Below, piece after piece: positions 5,310 through 23,253 of a stretch of 33,006 nt of DNA. This DNA is from a virus, in IMG/VR virus record IMGVR_UViG_3300045935_000083, positions 1 to 33,006 of that record, one strand, 5' to 3'. Below the pieces are notes generated by a model that saw only the letters and a program-made list of their open reading frames with translations, did not search any database and was not told where the DNA came from. The position numbers were made by a program, and so were the translations under genes. Within the stretch, counting starts at the first letter, position 1. Each line of letters begins with the position of its first letter.

Positions 5310-5630
5310 CTAGTTGGGCTCCTGCTGGGTGGGGGCGACCTCGATTTGCCACATGGGGCGCGGATGCTTTGCGCGGGTCGTGCAGCGAACGAACGTGCCC
5401 TCTTCGTAACCGTGGATCTTGCACTCGACCTCGCTCGCGTCGCGGACGAGGACCGGGCGCATCAGCACCGGGCGACCGGCATAGGCTTCGAAAGCCGCGC
5501 ACAACGCATCGACATCGTCATTGGCCGAGCGGTCCTGCCAGCCGAGCACTTCGTTGCCGTCGTCCTCGAACGGCTCTCCCTCGGGTTGCGGCCAGTAATC
5601 CCATTCGTGTTCCCGCACTTGCCCAGCCAC
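5310..5630 (-). CDS. Hypothetical early protein
   Basis: A 106-residue protein starting with a GTG directly after the upstream TAG. It is acidic, with a central helix (DDVDALCAAFEAYAGRP) and a C-terminal half (VECKIHGYEEGTFVRCTT, then PMWQIEVAP) that looks beta-rich and has two cysteines. No family is recognised. Position and spacing make it a real member of the early operon. Confidence 0.6.
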   Translation of the reverse strand: MAGQVREHEWDYWPQPEGEPFEDDGNEVLGWQDRSANDDVDALCAAFEAYAGRPVLMRPVLVRDASEVECKIHGYEEGTFVRCTTRAKHPRPMWQIEVAPTQQEPN

Positions 5631-6041
5631 CTACTCGGCCCCCTGCTTGGTGACGAGGATCTCGACCTCGATATCACCCTGCTTGAGCCTTATCGGGGTG
5701 CGTTTGAACGGGAGCTCGCCGTAGTGGGCCTTTATGAACCGGGCCGGGATCAGGTGGTGGGGGTCCTTCGGCCCCCAGCAGTTGTGGTCGGGGCGCCGGG
5801 GTCTGCCTTCGACGGCGTCCGCGAAGAAGCAGGGCCACTCGGTGACCAGTGCGCTGAAGCGGGAGTGGGCCTCGGCGAGGACTTTGGGCTCTGCCGCGCC
5901 GCCGCCCAAGGCGGTCGACCGGGCTTTCAGGGTCGGCTCGGCGGGTAGACCGCAGCCGGGTTCCGGGCAGCGAAGTTCGGACGAGGCCGGTTGGAAGCGG
6001 GTCTTCCACCGATGGCCGTTCGAGCAGACCTGGTTGCCCAT
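5631..6041 (-). CDS. HNH-like / zinc-ribbon protein (putative nuclease)
   Basis: 136 residues from the ATG at 6041, which shares a base with the mIHF-like stop (TGATG). The N-terminus has CSNGHRW and CPEPGCG, which could be a zinc ribbon. The segment DHNCWGPKDPHHLIPARFIKAHY contains the HHLIP signature that opens many HNH nuclease domains. The usual later Asn and His of an HNH motif are not clear, so it may be a divergent or inactive HNH domain, or a different zinc protein. A degradation or recombination role is only a guess. Confidence 0.55.
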   Translation of the reverse strand: MGNQVCSNGHRWKTRFQPASSELRCPEPGCGLPAEPTLKARSTALGGGAAEPKVLAEAHSRFSALVTEWPCFFADAVEGRPRRPDHNCWGPKDPHHLIPARFIKAHYGELPFKRTPIRLKQGDIEVEILVTKQGAE

Positions 6042-6385
6042 CAGGCAGTCGCCTCCTGCCGTACCGGGTGAGCGGTCTCCCATTCCTCCAGATGACGAGC
6101 GACCACCGAGACCTGGCGGTCGGTCATCTCGGCAAGCGTCTTCGAATAGCCGGCGCCCGCCTCATCCATGATCCGGCGGTAGCGCTTCTCGGGGAAGCTC
6201 CGGTACGAACGGATCAGCTTGTGCATCGAGCAGTTCCGGAGGTAGTCCGGGATCTCGCCGCGAAGCACCTCGACGAGCGAGATCCGGCCTGCCTTCACCT
6301 CACGCAGGAAAGCTCTACGGGCTTCCTTGACGTACTGCGCCCGCTCCAACGCAGGCATGTACTGACTGGGGGGCGGGACGTACAT
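6041..6385 (-). CDS. mIHF-like integration host factor protein
   Basis: A 114-residue protein. The arrangement ALERAQYVKEARRAFLREVK (11-30), SLVEVL (36-41), a short helix near CSMHKLIRSY, then YRRIMDEAGAGYSKTLAEMTDRQ (69-91) and a final helix resembles the actinobacterial mIHF family. Members have a helix-two-turn-helix core that bends DNA. In hosts, mIHF acts in nucleoid packing and phage integration. A phage copy next to the putative origin could organise replication or recombination complexes. The glycine-rich turn of cellular mIHF is replaced by FPEKRY, so DNA contact may differ. The ATG directly follows the upstream TAG. Confidence 0.7.
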   Translation of the reverse strand: MYVPPPSQYMPALERAQYVKEARRAFLREVKAGRISLVEVLRGEIPDYLRNCSMHKLIRSYRSFPEKRYRRIMDEAGAGYSKTLAEMTDRQVSVVARHLEEWETAHPVRQEATA

Positions 6386-6808
6386 CTAGCGCTCGCCTCC
6401 TGCGATGATCAGCGCGTCACGCACCGTTTGCCGCACCTCGGCAAGGTCCCGCAGCTTCTTCTCGAAGAGGCCGGTGATGTTCGGGGCGCGGTCCTGAGAC
6501 TGGACGATCTCGCGGGCTTCGCGGGCGGCAGCAAGACACAGGTCGGGCTCGTACTGAGTGAGCGCGCTAGCGATCGCGTCGCCGCGGGGAGCCGGCCAAG
6601 GGTTACCGAAATCGTTCAGCCCAAGCGAGTCGATGCCACCCTGTAGTACCGACCACACTTCAAGGTGAACGCCGTTTAGGGAAGGGCTATTTACACTCTG
6701 GGAAGTCAACGGCCCTACCCTTCCTCTAAAGCTCTGTGCTCTATAGCTAGCATCGAAATTGCATCGGTTTTCGCCTGCGACCGGTGTACGGTTTGTATGC
6801 GTTCGCAT
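6386..6808 (-). CDS. Hypothetical early protein near candidate origin
   Basis: The frame gives 140 residues from an ATG at 6808 that lies inside an iteron-like repeat and has no ribosome binding site. A TTG at 6709, after the purine-rich GAGGAAGGGTAGGG, would give 107 residues and would follow the small 6715-6843 ORF. I think the shorter form is at least as likely. The conserved-looking part is C-terminal: AIASALTQYEPDLCLAAAREAREIV and ITGLFEKKLRDLAEVRQTVRDAL, both helical. The function is unknown. Confidence 0.55.
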   Translation of the reverse strand: MRTHTNRTPVAGENRCNFDASYRAQSFRGRVGPLTSQSVNSPSLNGVHLEVWSVLQGGIDSLGLNDFGNPWPAPRGDAIASALTQYEPDLCLAAAREAREIVQSQDRAPNITGLFEKKLRDLAEVRQTVRDALIIAGGER

Positions 6809-13032: not shown

Positions 13033-13337
13033 CAACCGGCCCCGGCCTGGAGGATCACGGCTGCCAGCATCAAGACGAACGTCGTAAACGACGCAGCCGC
13101 AGCCCAAAGCCCTCTTCGAATCCAGACCATTTCACTCCTCTGCTCTTCCCGGGCCTTGGACAGTTCGCGTTTCATCTCCCCGATGTCCTCACGGATTTCC
13201 CGGACCTCGGTACCCGTGACCTTGATTTCGGTCTCGTGGCGGGCCGAGTGGTTGCGGAGTTCGCTGACCGAGCGATGGCTTGCGTCCAACCGTTGCTCAT
13301 GGGTGCGCAGTCGGACCTCTATCGCGCTGGCCTCCAT
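13032..13337 (-). CDS. XhlA-like coiled-coil/TM protein, putative holin
   Basis: A 101-residue protein. A charged coiled coil fills residues 1-72 (RLRTHEQRLDASHRSVSEL, GEMKRELSKAREEQRSEM). One transmembrane helix follows at 77-97 (GLWAAAASFTTFVLMLAAVIL). This layout matches haemolysin XhlA-like phage proteins found in lysis cassettes. It starts the cassette, coupled to the stop of the 1430-residue virion gene (TGATG). Confidence 0.65.
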   Translation of the reverse strand: MEASAIEVRLRTHEQRLDASHRSVSELRNHSARHETEIKVTGTEVREIREDIGEMKRELSKAREEQRSEMVWIRRGLWAAAASFTTFVLMLAAVILQAGAG

Positions 13338-16300
13338 CAGCCGCCCCCATATTGCCCGACGCCTGCCGAGTACTGACCCGGCCCAGAGCTGTATTGGCCC
13401 TTGCCACTGCTGTATTGCCCGCCCCCTGAGCCATACTGGCCCTTCTTCGTCGGTTCACCGTTGGGTCCGGTTTTCCAGGCGTCTTCGACCGCCCGCAGGA
13501 GTTCCTTCTGCTGTTCGGTAAAGGGGCGCTCAGCAGGCAAGAAGGGCGCCTCTTTGCGCTTCACGTAGCCGCTGGCACTTTCGGCTTTGTGGATCTCGTG
13601 CAAGACCTTCGGCAGAAGCTCGGGGCGCGGCCTGCCGCTCTTGCCATAGAGAAGTTCCTGCACGAGCTTGGAGTCGAAGGGACCGGGAATATCCCCTTCG
13701 CCGTACTTCGTGTCGAATTCCTTTTCGAGCTTCTTCGTATTCGCGTACTGCTCTGCGGTCTGCCCGATCAGGGGGTTGCCTACCGAGCGCTCCGTTCGCA
13801 ACGGGTCCTGGGCAGCGAACGCTTGGGCAGCGGGGCTGGCGCTTTCCCCCAGTTTGGGCAGGCCGAGGAATCGTGCCAACGGCGAGAGGTTGGCGAATTG
13901 CCGCGCCGCGTAGGCGAGGCCGTTTTCACCGATGTCCTGGCCGGTGTAGCCGGACTTGCCGAGGGCGGCTTCCGCTGCGATGGCAAGGGGCGGCTGGACC
14001 TCGCCGATCAACTGCGAGGGTTTGCCAGTGACGAGCGACTGCTGCACCGTGGAGAGGCCCGGGAAGGTCCGGACGCCCGCCGGGAGAATGGTCGGTTCCT
14101 TGCCCTCGCCGCTCTGCACCACCGGCATCGTGTAGTCGAGGACGCCCGGGACTGCGCCTTTGGTCGCGGCTATCTTCTGAAGCTCCTGCGCATTCACCTG
14201 ACCCAGAGTCGCCAGCGCCGTGGCAACCACCGGATGGTCCATCGGGAAGTGGTAGAGCATCCACAGCACGGAGTAGCGCTGGAAGGGGTAGAAGATCGTC
14301 AGCGGCGCGAAGTGTTTCTCGAAGACGGTGAAGCTGTTCCAGTTGCCCGCCATCGCGTTCATGTCTTTCATGAACTGGTCCCCCAACTTCGGGTGGGCGG
14401 CGACGTAGGCCATCCGCTCTGCCGGGGTCATTCCCTTCATCTCCTCGATGGCGCGGTCCATGTTGGCGAACATGTTGCTCGCGGCGTGGCGCCAGAAGTT
14501 GAAGCCTTTGGAGGCTCGGCGGAAGTCGCCCTCCACCTTTGCCATCCCGGCGACCTCCCGGAAGAGCCCGGCTCGGGAGCGGTCCAATTGCCCGAGCTTC
14601 GAGCCGTTCACTACCTCCCAGGCATGGCGCCACACCGATTTGCCGCCGGCAGCCCGGATGGGGTTCATGTAGCCCTCTGAGCGCAGTGCCTTGATCGACG
14701 GCGCCCCCAGCACTCCTACGGAGGAACCGACCACGGCCTTGATCTGGGCCTGATCCTCGGCGTCAAGTTTCGCAATCTCGCGCAGGTTGGCAATCGCGCG
14801 TGGGATATGAACGACATTCCGGCCCAGGGCAGCAGCCAGCGGTAGCCCCTCCTGCGGAACCTGGATCAGCGCGAAGGCCGGAGAGTTGAGGATCGTCCTC
14901 GTGGCGAAGTTGGTCGAGTGGGCGAAGAACTTGGTCACGCGCCCGAGCGGTTCCATGTGGCCCATCAGCTCATGAATCGCTGCGCCGTCCATCGGCGCGA
15001 ACTTCTCGCCCTTGGCGCCCTGCATCGCTTCGACCTCTCCCGCGAGCTCTTCGCCTGCCGAGAGTTTCTGCCCGTGTTCGACCTCTGCCATGAGCTGACG
15101 CTGGAACTCCTCGGGGCTCATGTGGTTCTCCCCTTTGAGAAGGGCTTTCAGCATTTGCGGGCGGACGAAGATCGTTCCGTCCGGAACCTTGTGGGCGTTG
15201 ATCGCCTGCTCCACCTGGCCCTGGGTGAGGAAGCGTTTGCCTTCCACCTTGCGGGTGGAGCGATCAAAGATCCGCTCGAGCCCCCGCACCGTCGCATCGC
15301 GCGCTCTTGGGGCTTCTACCGAGTGGTGCAGCAGCGACTCGAAGCCCGACTCGGCGTTGCCGCTCTGAGCCGCCAGCCCCCGGGAAGGCCAGACCTTGCG
15401 GAGTGGCAGCGAAGCGCCGTAGTTAGGGGCTTTGTCCTCGCCCTTGAGGCCGGAAGGGACTTTGTTCGCCACGTAGGCTGCGGGTTTGCGGAGTCCGAGC
15501 CGTTCAATCTCCGGAAGAACCTCCTGGACGAAGGCTTTCTCCTGCTCTGGATTCCATGCAACCGCCCGGGTAGTCGAGACCCCTCCCTCTGCCCCGCCGT
15601 GCTCAGGCGGGCGCATCAGCCCGTCCATCGACTTCAGGAGTGCCTCGCGCATCTTCAGCGCCCGCGTCTTGCCCGCGCCCTCTACCTGCTTCAGGCTTTC
15701 GGCGTAGTCGAGGGCTTCTTTGCGACTCCACCGGTCGGTGCGTTTCGGGACTGCCTTCTTCAGCAAGGCTGCCGTGTCCGAGCCGACCCGCTCCTCGGGG
15801 AAGAGTACTGGAAGTTTGCCTTCCTCCTTGCGGATGGGATTGATGAGGTTGTGGACTTGGGCTAGGTAGCGGTGGCGGGCCGAGGTGCCTACTGCCTCGG
15901 ATTGGCGCTCGAAGGCCGCGGCCGATCCGCTCAGGGCCTCCCCCCGCTTGCCCTGGAACATCTCCGGGTGATCCACGATCCACTGTGCCGAATGGCGGTC
16001 GAGATGCACGCCCGCCGGGATGCTCTCGGGCTTCGCGTCTCCATAGCCCCTGAGTAGGCGGTGGGCGTAGTCCACGGAGCGCTGGTCAAGCGGCAGGCCG
16101 TGTTTGAGGATCACCGCCAGAGCGTCGGAGTCGTTCTGCTGGGAGCGGTCGACGCCCTTGGAGCGGCGCAGCGGCTTGGCGATCGCCTTCGCCTCTCGTT
16201 TGCCCGCGTATTCGGCCTCTTCCTGCATCCGGGCCACGGTGCGGGCCGTGTGGTGTCGAGAGCGCTGCTTCTCGGTCAGCTTGCCGACGCCACGGAAAAC

Positions 16301-17629
16301 GTAGTTCTCCCCCGGCCGCGAAGAGTCGGCGACGGGCTGGCGGATCTTGCCTTTGAGCCGGCGCTTAGGGACGAACCGCCCGGCCTCCTTCGCGGCTGCC
16401 TCCTTGGCGATTCGCTTCTCGCGGGTGCCGGCGCGCCTGGTCTCGACGGTGGCCCGGATCTTGCCACGCACAGAATCCTCGTAGAGGCTCGTGCCCTTGG
16501 CCTTTCGCACAAGGTGAGGGACTGGGATGAAGGGGACCAGGCCGGTTTCATGGAGCGTCGTCTGCTCGACCTTCTTGGGGTCTCCAGAGGCGAGGTTCGT
16601 TGCCATCTGCTTCGTGCCCTCGTAGAGAGTCGAAGCCTCCTTGGTGAGCGGGTCCGTTGAGCCGGTCCGGGCCGACTTGACAGCCGCCCCCCCGACCGCG
16701 AGCGGAGCCGTGAGGAAGCCGAGGACGCCGTGCCCCGTAGTCACAGCTACCTGCCCCGGGTGGTTCACGGTTGCAGCTGCGGTTCCCTCGAGGAACGCCC
16801 GCGCACGCTGCCCTGGATCGAACCCGTTCACTTCGACCGCGCCCGGGGGCAGTGCTGCGGCAGCCGGGACGCCCGCTTTGACCGGGTGCTTGACGACGGT
16901 CCTCCCTGCTCCTCGAGCGGTGGCCCTGCGTCCCTCGGAGGTCGCTACCGCTTTCTTCGCAGTCCGGGGAGCAGCCTTGACCTGACGCGCTTTCTTCCCG
17001 GGGTACCTCTTCGCCCGCTCGGCAGCCTGCTTAGGCGCTGCCTTGACCTTCGCGACGATCTTCGCCCCGGCCTTCTTCTCGACGGTGCTGACGCCTTTTT
17101 CAAGCGCCCTCTCGCCTGCCTCCTTTGCCGCTGCGCTCCCTAGGGCTTTGGCTCCTGCCTCCACCCCGGCCTTCGCGAGCCCTGCGGCTCCCGTGACGAT
17201 CGTCGCGGCTTCGATCGCATGGGTTATGTCTTCCGGTTCGCCGAGGTTTTCGTGCCGCTTGAGATAGTCGAGCTGCTGTTTCTCGTAGGCCCTGGGCGCG
17301 TATTTCTTCAGGATCTCCGGCGGCGGTGCAGCTCCGGTCCTGGCAGCAGCAGCGGTGACATGCGGGTTGTTCTTCGGCTTGTAGGCAGGCGGCAGGACAA
17401 TGAGCGCTCCCGGCCGCTTCGACTTCGCGGCCTTGGCCTTGCTCTTCTTCGGCTTCGACGGGGGAGATGAGTTCGGCACGTAGACCGTCACCGGGGTCTT
17501 GGTCTTGTGTTCCTTGACCGTGAGATCACCAGAGGTGCCCCCGCTCTTGCGGGAGACCTTGGGGCGGGTTTCGGATTTCTGCCGTCCCTTCCCCGGGACG
17601 AAGACGGTGTGGCCGGTTCTAGCGGGCAT
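13337..17629 (-). CDS. Large internal virion / DNA-ejection protein
   Basis: A 1430-residue protein, the largest in the window. The N-terminus is basic and low-complexity (SKPKKSKAKAAKSKRPG), followed by Ala/Lys-rich helices with hydrophobic stretches near residues 140-160. A central helical region includes FATRTILNSPAFALIQVPQEG, and a later segment has FAPLTIFYPFQRYSVLWMLY. The C-terminus ends in five repeats of the form GQYxSGx. Size, helix content, hydrophobic patches and position after the tail genes fit the ejected internal proteins of podoviruses. The segment IHELMGH lacks the spacing of a zinc-protease site. No lysozyme motif was noticed. Confidence 0.7.
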   Translation of the reverse strand: MPARTGHTVFVPGKGRQKSETRPKVSRKSGGTSGDLTVKEHKTKTPVTVYVPNSSPPSKPKKSKAKAAKSKRPGALIVLPPAYKPKNNPHVTAAAARTGAAPPPEILKKYAPRAYEKQQLDYLKRHENLGEPEDITHAIEAATIVTGAAGLAKAGVEAGAKALGSAAAKEAGERALEKGVSTVEKKAGAKIVAKVKAAPKQAAERAKRYPGKKARQVKAAPRTAKKAVATSEGRRATARGAGRTVVKHPVKAGVPAAAALPPGAVEVNGFDPGQRARAFLEGTAAATVNHPGQVAVTTGHGVLGFLTAPLAVGGAAVKSARTGSTDPLTKEASTLYEGTKQMATNLASGDPKKVEQTTLHETGLVPFIPVPHLVRKAKGTSLYEDSVRGKIRATVETRRAGTREKRIAKEAAAKEAGRFVPKRRLKGKIRQPVADSSRPGENYVFRGVGKLTEKQRSRHHTARTVARMQEEAEYAGKREAKAIAKPLRRSKGVDRSQQNDSDALAVILKHGLPLDQRSVDYAHRLLRGYGDAKPESIPAGVHLDRHSAQWIVDHPEMFQGKRGEALSGSAAAFERQSEAVGTSARHRYLAQVHNLINPIRKEEGKLPVLFPEERVGSDTAALLKKAVPKRTDRWSRKEALDYAESLKQVEGAGKTRALKMREALLKSMDGLMRPPEHGGAEGGVSTTRAVAWNPEQEKAFVQEVLPEIERLGLRKPAAYVANKVPSGLKGEDKAPNYGASLPLRKVWPSRGLAAQSGNAESGFESLLHHSVEAPRARDATVRGLERIFDRSTRKVEGKRFLTQGQVEQAINAHKVPDGTIFVRPQMLKALLKGENHMSPEEFQRQLMAEVEHGQKLSAGEELAGEVEAMQGAKGEKFAPMDGAAIHELMGHMEPLGRVTKFFAHSTNFATRTILNSPAFALIQVPQEGLPLAAALGRNVVHIPRAIANLREIAKLDAEDQAQIKAVVGSSVGVLGAPSIKALRSEGYMNPIRAAGGKSVWRHAWEVVNGSKLGQLDRSRAGLFREVAGMAKVEGDFRRASKGFNFWRHAASNMFANMDRAIEEMKGMTPAERMAYVAAHPKLGDQFMKDMNAMAGNWNSFTVFEKHFAPLTIFYPFQRYSVLWMLYHFPMDHPVVATALATLGQVNAQELQKIAATKGAVPGVLDYTMPVVQSGEGKEPTILPAGVRTFPGLSTVQQSLVTGKPSQLIGEVQPPLAIAAEAALGKSGYTGQDIGENGLAYAARQFANLSPLARFLGLPKLGESASPAAQAFAAQDPLRTERSVGNPLIGQTAEQYANTKKLEKEFDTKYGEGDIPGPFDSKLVQELLYGKSGRPRPELLPKVLHEIHKAESASGYVKRKEAPFLPAERPFTEQQKELLRAVEDAWKTGPNGEPTKKGQYGSGGGQYSSGKGQYSSGPGQYSAGVGQYGGG
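13340..13445 (-). repeat. GQYxSGx heptad repeats
   Basis: Five tandem copies of about 21 bp encode GQYGSGG, GQYSSGK, GQYSSGP, GQYSAGV and GQYGGG at the very end of the 1430-residue protein. The units differ in their codons, so they are not recent identical copies. Gly/Tyr/Ser repeats of this type are flexible and may self-associate or mediate contact in the virion. Confidence 0.7.
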
Positions 17630-19495: not shown

Positions 19496-19885
19496 TTAGG
19501 TCTCGGCTATCCATGAGAAGAGGATTTTCGTTCCGCCTGCGGGGGATATCCCCTGGACGTGTTCGCCCCTGAAGGTGATCGTGGTACTCGTGCTTGCCAC
19601 CGCTGCGACGTGGACCGCCGGGTTTGACGAGGCGATTGCGGGGAAGACTTCGGCGGTTCCGAGCCCGTGGCTCACCGCTAGTTCTTTCGTCAGCGGCGAT
19701 CCCCCGGGGAATTCGACTTCGGCCTTGCCGCGGTTGATCGTCCTGCTCGCAGGCGTGGGGTTCTGGGGACTCAGTTCCTTCGCGGATTTCCCAAGATCCT
19801 CGGCCTGGAGCGGGAACCTCTGGCCTACCTGGCGGAAGTTCTGATCCGTTGCCTGGTCGTCTACTGCTTGCAGGGGGAGGCTCAA
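19496..19885 (-). CDS. Small appendage/tail protein
   Basis: A 129-residue protein starting with TTG after AAAGGAG. The stretch LTKELAVSHGLGTAEVFPAI, then AVHVAAVASTSTTITFRGEH, is typical of a small beta-sandwich domain found on phage tail fibres and appendages. The promoter of the opposite metalloprotease gene would have to lie within it. Confidence 0.6.
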   Translation of the reverse strand: MSLPLQAVDDQATDQNFRQVGQRFPLQAEDLGKSAKELSPQNPTPASRTINRGKAEVEFPGGSPLTKELAVSHGLGTAEVFPAIASSNPAVHVAAVASTSTTITFRGEHVQGISPAGGTKILFSWIAET

Positions 19886-19905
19886 CTGGTCTAGGCTCCT
19901 TTGCC

Positions 19906-20502
19906 GTGAAGTGGCTTGGTTTCTTTCTGGCGCTCGGGCTGCTGCTTCCGGCGGGGGCTCAAGCGCAGACGACGATCATTGCGCCGCCGGGGTCAGGGTT
20001 CCCGTACCAGCGCTGGGTAGACGAAGCGGCGATGCCGACCCCCGACCTATCCATCAGCATCATCGAAGGTGACAGCGAAGGGGAAGGATGGCCCTGCCAT
20101 GTGCCCTATGCCCCCAAACCGCTGGCAGCGTGCGCTTTCGTGGAACAAGGCACTGCCTATTTCGACCCGCTTGGTGGTGAACCTCGCTTCACGCTCTACC
20201 ACGAGCTTGGACACTTCGTTGACGTTGCGACGCTGACCGACGCTGATCGTCGCTGGTTTGCCGATTTCATCCGAATGCCGGTTGATCCGTGGCTCTCAGA
20301 AGTAACCCACAACACTGCGGGAGAGGACTTCGCAAGCGTCTATGCGACCTGTCTACGGTTCGGGCTGCGCGTCCGATTTACTCAAATGGAATTGGAAGAC
20401 GGGCGCTACATCTACCCCAAGCGCCACTTTCGTCTCTGCCGTTGGATTGAGCGGGTGACCACGGCCACTACGCAGCAAGCAGTAAGTAGCTCAGCCGGGT
20501 AG
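19906..20502 (+). CDS. Secreted zinc-metalloprotease-like protein, antisense moron
   Basis: 198 residues from the GTG at 19906, chosen because it starts a clean signal peptide (MKWLGFFLALGLLLPAGAQA, cut near residue 20). The zinc motif is HELGH at 99-103, and GEDFASVYA at 139-147 supplies Glu140 as the likely third ligand, the pattern of many gluzincin-like host proteins. Two or more Cys pairs suggest an exported fold. It is the only plus-strand gene inside the late region. Its start overlaps the end of nothing sense-related but lies opposite the 19496-19885 start region, and its 3' end overlaps the convergent fibre-like gene by 35 bp. No terminator or good ribosome binding site is visible. 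The role is unknown. Confidence 0.7.
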   Translation: MKWLGFFLALGLLLPAGAQAQTTIIAPPGSGFPYQRWVDEAAMPTPDLSISIIEGDSEGEGWPCHVPYAPKPLAACAFVEQGTAYFDPLGGEPRFTLYHELGHFVDVATLTDADRRWFADFIRMPVDPWLSEVTHNTAGEDFASVYATCLRFGLRVRFTQMELEDGRYIYPKRHFRLCRWIERVTTATTQQAVSSSAG

Positions 20503-21034
20503 CAAACGTTCGCGCTTTCGCAGTTCCTTCCCCGTTCTTCTTCGCACGCATTTTGACCGTGTGCGTGGCAGCCGTGAGACTGAGGGCATACGTTTGACTC
20601 GCCGAATTTCTCAGAGCATCAACCGTCCCGAGCGACTTCTTCGAAAAGATGGCGCCAATTGATTGCTCGCTTTCGGAATCGACCTTGAGACTTCCGACTG
20701 CTTCAACAACCGCCCCCGGCGTGGCCACCGTTTCGACTTCAAAGTCGAAGACAGCCGTCACCAGCAGGAGGCTCGCTACTGACGGCGTAATTTCCAGTTT
20801 CGCTCCCGAAACGTCTGCATAGCTGGCGGTCAGCGTAGATTCGCCGCTCGCCGTTATCACGCCTGCCGTTGGTTTGAGCTTCTTGGACGAAATGGCACCA
20901 TCGGCGATGCCCCCTTCGCCGAGTACGTTTTCGCCGTTCAGGAGTTCATTCAGTCGTTTAACCGCAGCGACGACCTTCGGGTCGGCGGTTTTGTTGAATT
21001 CGCCGATCGCGGGGACTTCAAGCGTGCCTGCCAA
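20468..21034 (-). CDS. Tail appendage / fibre-like protein
   Basis: A 188-residue protein starting with TTG after GAGGAC. The N-terminus (VVAAVKRLNELLNGENVLGE, then GGIADGAISSKKLKPT) is a helix followed by the 'G.I..GAI.S.KL' pattern common at the start of phage fibres. The rest alternates beta strands (ESTLTASYADVSGAKLEITP; ASLLLVTAVFDFEVE) as in a jelly-roll knob. It is likely a receptor-binding or fibre-tip protein. Confidence 0.65.
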   Translation of the reverse strand: MAGTLEVPAIGEFNKTADPKVVAAVKRLNELLNGENVLGEGGIADGAISSKKLKPTAGVITASGESTLTASYADVSGAKLEITPSVASLLLVTAVFDFEVETVATPGAVVEAVGSLKVDSESEQSIGAIFSKKSLGTVDALRNSASQTYALSLTAATHTVKMRAKKNGEGTAKARTFATRLSYLLLAA

Positions 21035-21046
21035 AGTGGTCCTCTC

Positions 21047-22651
21047 TTAGGCGTTAAGGGTGGCTGGTTTGCGGGTCTCTCGCTGCATGTGGTCAACTCG
21101 ATGGATCGACCAGGGCTGATCCAGGATGGAGTTCGCGAAGTAGACCGAGAAGGCCGTGCCTCTAACCGCGACACGCCGATGAGCCACAACGAGGTCTGAG
21201 GCCACGTCTCCAAGGAACCCTTCGCCCCCGAGCATCCCGCCCCCTCCCTCGGTGCTCCCCGTGGAGCCCGACATGTCGAGCGCGGTAACGCCCGCCGGCT
21301 GGATCGTGAAATCGTGGTCGAGCCCCATGCCGACTTCCCCCGTCCCCCAGACCTTCGAAGCCCGGATCGTCTTAACGTCCGGACTACCGAGGTCGAACCA
21401 TCCCGAGCGCCAGTAGGAGGAGATCGCGGAGCCCGCGTCGTTCGTGAAGCTAGAGGAGTGGCGGGCGACCTTGTTTTCTCCAGAGGCGTAGCCGAAGATC
21501 AGCTCGGGAGCCGAGCCGATCCGGAAGGAGGCGAGGGCTGCGGCCGGGAACGAGTAGAGGGACCACCACTGCCGTTCGGGGTCGTAGACCAGCGTCCGGC
21601 TGTTGGCTTCAGCGGTCGGGTAGCTCAGGTAGAGCCTGCCGCCGTGGATCGTCGCCGCGCAGTTGGCGATTGACCCGTGGGCCAGGACGCCTCCCGTAAA
21701 GAACGGGGAGGCGTCCCCCGACCAGATCGGTTCCACCCTGCCGCTGATCGGTTCCGGGGCCTGCCCGGTGGTTCTGTAGATCCCGTTGCGCCCCATGAAG
21801 TAGACGCCGCTGGAGTCCGCGCAGATCGTTCTGGGCGCGGCGCAGCCGATCCCCGTGTCGACGGTGCGGTAGTTGAAGACCGGATTACCAGCGGAGTCCG
21901 TTGACTCCCCGTAATAAACGAAGAACCGGCTTTCCTTGAATACGAAGACGAATTCGCCCCAGGCGATGGCGCCCTGGATCGCCTCGCCGTCTCCTGGGGT
22001 CAGCTGGTCGGAATTGTTCGGGTTGGCTTCGGTGCCGGCGGTCTTCCAGGCTTCCGGGTTGCCTTCCTCCGCGAACCAGACATGGCTCGGGGAGGAGGTG
22101 GCGCCGGAAGGCCCACCCGTCGTCGTGGAAAAGCCCGTGGCAAGAAGACGGTTCCCTGCCGAGGCGAGAACCGCTAGATAGCGAGCCTTGGGCATCGCTT
22201 TCGCCGCTTCCCCGTTCACCGTGGCCGTAGGGGCGCTCCATGCCGCCCCGCTCCACTTGCGGATCGTGTCCGTCCCGTTCCCCGCGTAGGCAGTCTCTGA
22301 GTTCGGGGTGCCGAACCGGCAGAAGTCCCACGGACCCCCGGAGAGACCGGTAGCGGAGGCGACGACGGCTCCTGCGGTGCTCAGAGCCTCCAGGCGCGTA
22401 CCGCAGCCTGCGAGGAGTTGCTTGGTCCCTGAGGAGGTGTAGAAAGGTTCGAGCGAGTCGGCGCGGTTCGTGAGGGCTGAGCCGGTCAGTGCTGCAGATC
22501 CCGGGCGCTGTTCGATCGCGCCCCGATCAGTGAAGGTGACATTCAAAGCGTCGATGCACTCGGAAGCCGAAACCGCGTCGGCCTTGTCCGCCAGGTTCAA
22601 GCCGCCGCCGAAGGCATCAAACGGCCAGCTCGTGTACCCACGGCCGGGCAT
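21047..22651 (-). CDS. Nozzle / packaged-DNA-stabilisation-like tail protein
   Basis: 534 residues from the ATG at 22651 (TGATG with the adaptor stop); the TTG two codons earlier is less likely. The protein is Gly/Ser/Thr-rich and beta-dominated with repeated blade-like stretches (GGLNLADKADAVSASECIDA; GEFVFVFKESRFFVYYGES; GRLYLSYPTAEANSRTLVYD). This resembles the propeller-type nozzle or gp10-like stabilisation proteins of podoviruses. It follows the adaptor gene, as expected for a short-tail assembly. Confidence 0.75.
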   Translation of the reverse strand: MPGRGYTSWPFDAFGGGLNLADKADAVSASECIDALNVTFTDRGAIEQRPGSAALTGSALTNRADSLEPFYTSSGTKQLLAGCGTRLEALSTAGAVVASATGLSGGPWDFCRFGTPNSETAYAGNGTDTIRKWSGAAWSAPTATVNGEAAKAMPKARYLAVLASAGNRLLATGFSTTTGGPSGATSSPSHVWFAEEGNPEAWKTAGTEANPNNSDQLTPGDGEAIQGAIAWGEFVFVFKESRFFVYYGESTDSAGNPVFNYRTVDTGIGCAAPRTICADSSGVYFMGRNGIYRTTGQAPEPISGRVEPIWSGDASPFFTGGVLAHGSIANCAATIHGGRLYLSYPTAEANSRTLVYDPERQWWSLYSFPAAALASFRIGSAPELIFGYASGENKVARHSSSFTNDAGSAISSYWRSGWFDLGSPDVKTIRASKVWGTGEVGMGLDHDFTIQPAGVTALDMSGSTGSTEGGGGMLGGEGFLGDVASDLVVAHRRVAVRGTAFSVYFANSILDQPWSIHRVDHMQRETRKPATLNA

Positions 22652-23253
22652 CAACAAAAGGGGTCGGGGTTGGTGACCGCGATGAATTCGCTCGGCCCGT
22701 CCCTGTACACGTCGAGCAGCGCTTCACGCATCCGCTGGAGCCGTCGCTGGAACGCTTCTTCTGCGTTGCGTTCGAGTTCGAAATCGTCTGAGTCCGCGTA
22801 GGCCCGGGCCACTGCTCCGTCCACTATCAGCGAGTGGAAACGTTCGGGAAGGAGGGGCACGGCTGAGCCGGAGAGCCTCGGCGGCACTTTGTAGTAGCGC
22901 CCGGAGAGGACGGCCGTCGAAGAGGTCGGGAAGGTCTTGATCTCCCCTTCGGAGACGTAGTAGTAGCTCGGCGTGCCTTCTTCTTCCAGGTCTACGCTGG
23001 AGTCCGTGAGGAGGCGGGGGTCGAGCGGTTTGAGCTTGGTCTGCTCCGTGGAGTTGAGGAGGTAGGCGATGCTGCGGAGGTCAGAGACTGCCAATGGCGC
23101 AGTGCCCGAGAGCGGGGCTTCGAGGAACGGCCAGTCCTCTGCGTCGCAGATGTCCACCAGGTAGGCATCGTTGAGGTAGCCGAGAGCCTTGGAGGACGAG
23201 TGGTAATCGAAGCCCCGACCCTGATATTCGGCTATGAGTTCTTCAGCGGTCAA
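22651..23253 (-). CDS. Head-tail adaptor protein
   Basis: A 200-residue protein from a TTG that overlaps the upstream stop (TTGA). The helical N-terminus (MTAEELIAEYQGRG, YLNDAYLVDICDAEDWPF), a beta section (YYYVSEGEIKTFPT, SGRYYKVPPRL) and a C-terminal helix bundle (RNAEEAFQRRLQRMREALL) follow the plan of podovirus adaptors that bind under the portal (gp4/gatekeeper type). Its order between capsid and nozzle genes supports this. Confidence 0.7.
   Translation of the reverse strand: MTAEELIAEYQGRGFDYHSSSKALGYLNDAYLVDICDAEDWPFLEAPLSGTAPLAVSDLRSIAYLLNSTEQTKLKPLDPRLLTDSSVDLEEEGTPSYYYVSEGEIKTFPTSSTAVLSGRYYKVPPRLSGSAVPLLPERFHSLIVDGAVARAYADSDDFELERNAEEAFQRRLQRMREALLDVYRDGPSEFIAVTNPDPFC

Follow-up and report, generated by a model that had tools for sequence, protein, structure and literature searches.

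Introduction

Genes that run against the surrounding operon have been described in several phages. In phi80, TaiEcA lies antisense in the late operon and falls when Q drives late transcription (PMC11364771). The tha/ith system of S. aureus prophages shows mutual antisense interference (PMC11087260). The 'ant moron' site of P22 includes a superinfection exclusion gene (PMC2629481). The locus studied here lies in a virus record of 33,006 bases (IMG/VR record IMGVR_UViG_3300045935_000083), and this whole stretch is called the window. It carries a plus-strand gene for a secreted gluzincin-like zinc metalloprotease, and minus-strand virion genes stand on both sides of it, as in a noncontiguous operon. 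As a putative moron within a noncontiguous operon, the locus is of a known kind and comparable to the P22 'ant moron' site (PMC2629481). We propose, with a probability of about 0.6, that the protease gene is an autonomously expressed lysogenic-conversion moron that occupies a fixed slot between two fibre genes and runs against the late operon around it.

Results

The open reading frame starts with GTG and encodes 198 aa, with E140 inside GEDFASVYA. The main features of the region are as follows.

19496..19885, minus strand: fibre-like gene 2 (129 aa, TTG start), one slot border; N-terminus conserved in L002, L003, L006 and L016
19906..20502, plus strand: gene for the secreted gluzincin-like zinc metalloprotease (translation, 10 homologues, model pLDDT 86.3)
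19906..19965, plus strand: predicted signal peptide, residues 1-20, cleavage between AQA and Q (direct reading and heuristic)
20200..20214, plus strand: HELGH zinc motif, residues 99-103 (translation, alignment)
20323..20325, plus strand: Glu140 codon, presumed third zinc ligand
20468..20502, both strands: 35-bp convergent overlap of the 3' ends of the protease and fibre genes (coordinates of both genes)
20468..21034, minus strand: fibre-like gene 1 (188 aa), left slot border in gene order; C-terminus 42-45% identical to the L011 fibre C-terminus
21047..22657, minus strand: virion protein resembling P22 gp10, a conserved anchor that precedes the slot in operon order (phrog_3287, E 2.5e-21; 40-68% identity in relatives)

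The 198-aa frame, signal peptide, HELGH motif and Glu140 given in a preliminary description were all read directly in the sequence, and the coordinates agree with its 35-bp overlap. That description also placed the protease gene opposite the start of the next appendage gene, which is incorrect: the latter has its start at 19885, which leaves 20 bp before the protease GTG, and it is the putative protease promoter, not the coding region, that overlaps the start of fibre-like gene 2. Apart from the 35-bp overlap, the minus-strand genes need none of the protease-gene DNA.

The minus strand of the right half of the window encodes a P22-like head and neck module (terminase, portal, coat and the gp10-like protein). 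The host of the window phage is likely actinobacterial, because the portal and coat proteins have distant relatives in phages of Arthrobacter, Microbacterium and Cellulosimicrobium. Two large minus-strand genes lie elsewhere in the window. In the product of the first (944-2758; 604 aa), a DUF3850 domain was recognised (Pfam E 5.7e-21; phrog_986, RNA-binding). The second (13337-17629) encodes a protein of 1430 aa that matches nothing in Pfam and has a relative of 1431 aa in L006; it is probably an internal virion or ejection protein. An Rfam search of the window gave no match.

Single-sequence searches of viral contigs and phage records with the protease found no relative. Homologues were reached through the neighbour genes, which led to relatives and to an antisense homologue at the same place in L004. 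Profile searches then added L007, L008, L009, L011, the L043 group, L045, L084, L093 and L096. The ten homologues are 21-38% identical to the window protein, and nearly all of them keep a signal peptide. In the 11-sequence alignment H99, E100, G102, H103, E140, A143, C76, C149 and C178 are invariant. A match to phrog_1914, a family without known function, was seen at E 0.0014. Scans of genome contigs with the protease and portal profiles returned no bacterial or prophage relatives; these scans required exact short motifs, and such absence is weak evidence. In L007 the protease frame (5395-6459) is longer at its upstream end, where it encodes a small secreted cysteine protein; L004 and L009 have separate genes for the two proteins, which are apparently fused in L007.

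An AlphaFold model built from the 11 sequences reached pLDDT 86.3 and pTM 0.82. In this model HExxH lies within helix 93-109 and E140 close to the beginning of helix 138-152, and the protein thus has two marks of gluzincin clan MA(E), an HExxH motif and a Glu on a downstream helix, both invariant. In Foldseek, zincins were the top 13 PDB matches with the catalytic domain of lethal factor leading (best E 0.037, probability 0.91, TM 0.34), and an earlier model from 5 sequences gave identical leading matches. All these nearest fold matches are weak and none is significant. When PDB sequences were searched with the profile, the M78-like peptidase CapP matched at E 0.0087 across HExxH and the downstream Glu; the match to PPEP-1 over the HExxH region was weak (E 1.2). 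No Pfam or PHROG model matched the window protease at threshold. As to the suggested gluzincin fold, the model is confident and zincins lead the fold matches, but no match is significant and no sequence family reaches its threshold.

Three family assignments were considered and rejected: Peptidase M78 (PF06114, 12.5 bits against a gathering score of 22, E 0.13), M34 (lethal-factor catalytic domain and PPEP; neither the profile nor the fold match is significant), and the metzincins, since HELGHFVDVAT has no third His and both HExxHxxGxxH and the Met-turn are absent. CapP, the best profile match among solved structures, belongs to the M78 (IrrE-like) type of intracellular proteins, unlike the window protein, which is predicted to be exported. 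M34-type gluzincins such as PPEP-1/Zmp1 and the lethal-factor catalytic domain are secreted and take a Glu as third ligand after a further helix, as is predicted for the window protein; the other domains of the lethal-factor toxin are all absent from the window protein. From the zincin-type fold matches and the CapP profile match, we consider the modelled protein to be a divergent gluzincin-like peptidase whose likeness to M34 is one of class and not of membership.

Long antisense frames are favoured by high GC and the frame falls short of every Pfam family threshold, as would be expected of a spurious frame with a chance HELGH. This explanation can be practically discounted, as the alignment of ten divergent homologues already refutes it, the model is confident, and nearly the whole length of the frame has no opposing gene. 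Conservation of H99, E100, H103, E140 and C76/C149/C178 at such divergence goes far beyond a chance frame and, as judged by sequence, the frame is a real gene.

The position of the gene recurs. Ten of the 11 lineages have the protease gene on the strand opposite a fibre-like gene, with the two genes converging. These carriers include P22-like, podovirus-like phages (window, L004, L009, L043, L045), myovirus-like phages (L007 and L096 by their baseplate proteins, L084 by neighbours that resemble those of L007) and siphovirus-like phages (L011 and L093, by portal type). Fibre C-terminal domains are common to different virion types: that of fibre-like gene 1 is found in siphovirus-like L011 (45% in alignment), and that of L007 in L002/L006/L032. 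An exact 4-bp stop-stop overlap occurs at 14 of 24 slot junctions. The exception is L008, where the only protease copy found outside the fibre slot (5962-6525) follows the endolysin gene closely, away from fibres and co-directional with the endolysin and helicase genes. In L005, L027, L029 and L049 the slot is empty and the two fibre genes abut, and other cargo fills it elsewhere. The presence-absence comparison proposed earlier thus supports a moron, an extra gene missing from relatives with intact flanks. The single antisense gene first reported was a correct observation, and its interpretation was largely right but too narrow, for the window gene is one case of a recurring slot.

Other exported proteins occupy this slot in related and unrelated phages, and it looks like a general slot for host-secreted proteins. 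Secreted antisense metzincins, with the HExxHxxGxxH and Met-turn of a clan (matrixins, PF00413) separate from that of the window protein, were found in L018, L070, L077, L085 and L089, the last above the Pfam Matrixin cut-off. L017 carries an alpha/beta-hydrolase-like protein, with a family match below cut-off and an ESMG nucleophile elbow read directly. Small secreted proteins were found in L002, L003, L006, L016, L032, L073, L075 and L081. The signal-peptide heuristic was positive for 25/25 slot frames vs 22/650 antisense frames opposite conserved genes, a contrast inflated by the listing of slot frames partly by hydrophobicity. Strict pairing of cargo and fibre type was examined and dropped: the gluzincins accompany fibres of three C-terminal types, the metzincins fibres of two.

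The signal-peptide DNA of unrelated enzymes is alike. The L017 hydrolase and the L077 metzincin have 75% identity in their first 60 nt and 33% in the 60 that follow, and the L004 gluzincin and L017 72% and 37%, against all-pair medians of 45% and 37%. Because the first 60 nt are alike and the next 60 unlike, the sequences suggest that mature domains have been exchanged behind a common export signal, with constraint on signal peptides as a partial alternative. In several genomes, genes for small single-helix membrane proteins immediately precede the secreted gene, several of them with an overlap of 4 bp; they have no weighty family match. Their products could be exclusion or immunity partners. 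The genes are as follows.

L006 12690-12875, minus strand: small membrane-protein gene
L017 18533-18691, minus strand: small membrane-protein gene
L018 18478-18696, minus strand: small membrane-protein gene
L070 4989-5162, minus strand: small membrane-protein gene
L077 4947-5093, minus strand: small membrane-protein gene

Two tRNA calls were also made in the relatives, a predicted tRNA-Gln(CTG) in L003 (4489-4560, plus strand) and a predicted tRNA-Ser(GGA) in L004 (21452-21547, minus strand); the L004 prediction, which runs opposite a conserved virion gene, may be spurious.

Upstream of the protease gene the arrangement TTGCAG-18 nt-TAGGCT-8 nt-GTG was found.

19868..19873, plus strand: putative -35 element TTGCAG, within the coding sequence of fibre-like gene 2, which runs leftward
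19892..19897, plus strand: putative -10 element TAGGCT of a leaderless promoter, 8 nt before the GTG (TANNNT at such an offset across cassettes)

A standard sigma70 scan of the region gave no promoter, and TTGCAG is a weak match to a -35 element (for the window taken by itself, p about 0.04); the TANNNT pattern, significant over the set of cassettes, emerged only when the cassettes were compared. In 13/23 cassettes, against 0/159 sense late genes, a TANNNT ends 6-10 nt ahead of the first start codon, whereas 0.91 cassettes are expected by shuffling and 0.22 for random ATG/GTG codons (1% of which have it), although p-values here overstate independence because some cassette lineages are related. 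Cassette start codons were picked by signal peptide or homology, not by promoter. A Shine-Dalgarno-like site is missing from nearly all TANNNT cassettes and present in nearly all the others. The published signature of leaderless genes is the same, a -10 element close to the start and no Shine-Dalgarno-like site (PMC3160421, PMC3898074). From the frequency of TANNNT in cassettes and its absence from sense late genes, the window gene is probably read as a leaderless transcript from its own host-type promoter.

The non-leaderless cassettes have a common 5' hairpin (GCCCCGG, loop, CCGGGGC) just before the Shine-Dalgarno site. A stretch of 39 nt is nearly identical in L002 and L003, and double changes occur in 3 of 10 pairs. 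An Rfam search of the L003 hairpin stretch and leader gave chance-level matches only, none relevant.

L002 14569-14625, minus strand: 5' hairpin
L003 18139-18197, minus strand: 5' hairpin
L006 12607-12672, minus strand: 5' hairpin
L085 5062-5125, minus strand: 5' hairpin
L081 5073-5140, minus strand: 5' hairpin

Discussion

The conserved catalytic residues, the confident model, the signal peptide, the promoter-like element and the presence or absence at a slot with intact flanks support the earlier proposal of a secreted zinc metalloprotease carried as a moron. From the observed gene, homology, motif, slot, orientation and promoter pattern we infer its catalysis, transcription, lysogenic expression and silencing. 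In the prophage, with late genes silent, host RNA polymerase would start at the TTGCAG-18-TAGGCT promoter and make a leaderless mRNA. The product would be exported by Sec and cleaved after Ala20, and outside the cell it would act as a zinc peptidase with His99, His103 and Glu140 as ligands and Glu100 as the base. When the late operon fires, converging transcription would silence the gene. Integrases in the records of L003, L006 (Tyr) and L007 (Ser) indicate that lysogeny exists in the group, and the window phage itself may share it; the window fragment and most of the protease carriers examined showed no integrase, though these records may be incomplete. Against this model stand the co-directional L008 copy away from fibres, the fold matches below significance, the weak -35 and the empty sigma70 scan.

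The preliminary description also offered antisense RNA to the fibre genes as a purpose. If tuning those genes were the main function and the protein secondary, the promoter and gene would be well placed inside the late operon, where they overlap fibre-like gene 2 in its start region and fibre-like gene 1 at its 3' end. We find this very improbable, as the protein and its catalytic residues are conserved over great divergence, unrelated secreted proteins refill the slot, and most overlaps with fibre genes are only 4 bp. More probably, by analogy, the antisense layout would allow the protease to be silenced when the late genes are transcribed, an effect reported for other prophage morons. The same layout bears on a lytic-phase helper, made in infection and acting when the cell lyses or on its debris, for instance by releasing progeny bound to cell-surface receptors. 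The late-region position and the L008 copy directly after the endolysin gene agree with it, but an antisense orientation in 10 of 11 lineages with a host-type leaderless promoter fits late co-expression poorly, as late genes would oppose it, and we judge it improbable.

The role of a moron protease is harder to assign. The favoured role would be proteolysis of the host surface for superinfection exclusion, since the slot cargo is united by its compartment, outside the cell, and by its neighbour, a fibre gene. The specific form of it, in which a host surface protein is trimmed and related phages adsorb poorly, is tentative, at well below even odds. The mixing of cargo and fibre types across slots weakens a receptor-specific role. 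It is also what would be expected if lysogens used the protease to degrade environmental proteins or to harm competitors, the fibre slot being a tolerated insertion site unlinked to adsorption. Two protease clans and a hydrolase in one slot would suit general exoenzymes, and many relatives sit in metagenomic contigs. Enzymes of about 180 aa and motif-less small secreted proteins in the same slot would be odd for nutrition, however, and a fibre gene always adjoins except in L008; we regard this explanation as rather unlikely. A broader possibility, itself rather doubtful, is an exchange locus in phages with actinophage-like virion genes, in which a receptor-binding fibre is paired with a converging gene for a secreted enzyme, made in the prophage, by which the receptor is destroyed or masked; the two protease clans, the hydrolase and the small secreted proteins would have been swapped behind shared signal peptides and promoters. 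If true, it would be a phage receptor-destroying-enzyme system for superinfection exclusion.

One odd gene has thus led to a rule: antisense at the 3' end of such fibre genes, a secreted enzyme is often present, and prophage-encoded exported enzymes can be found by position. A protease family is defined for which no Pfam or PHROG model reaches threshold, and remodelling of the host surface by prophage proteolysis that excludes competitors becomes testable. The cassette comparison suggests that phages of high-GC hosts keep slot genes on during lysogeny through leaderless promoters. Our literature searches of open-access papers found no description of such a secreted-enzyme slot with leaderless promoters across virion types, or of this protease family.

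Among known systems, phi80 Tai/Ati (PMC11364771) and tha/ith (PMC11087260) resemble the window in having an antisense gene with its own promoter in a phage operon, and tai runs against late genes and is on in lysogeny (PMC11364771). Those systems encode defence proteins that stay inside the cell and are paired with an inhibitor, whereas the window product is predicted to be exported and no inhibitor gene was recognised. The P22-like 'ant moron' beside the tailspike gene (PMC2629481) likewise offers variable, independently expressed cargo at one late-operon site next to a receptor-binding gene. Its cargo, in enteric phages, consists of regulatory and membrane proteins (PMC2629481), while the slot described here carries secreted enzymes with putative leaderless promoters in phages of several virion types.
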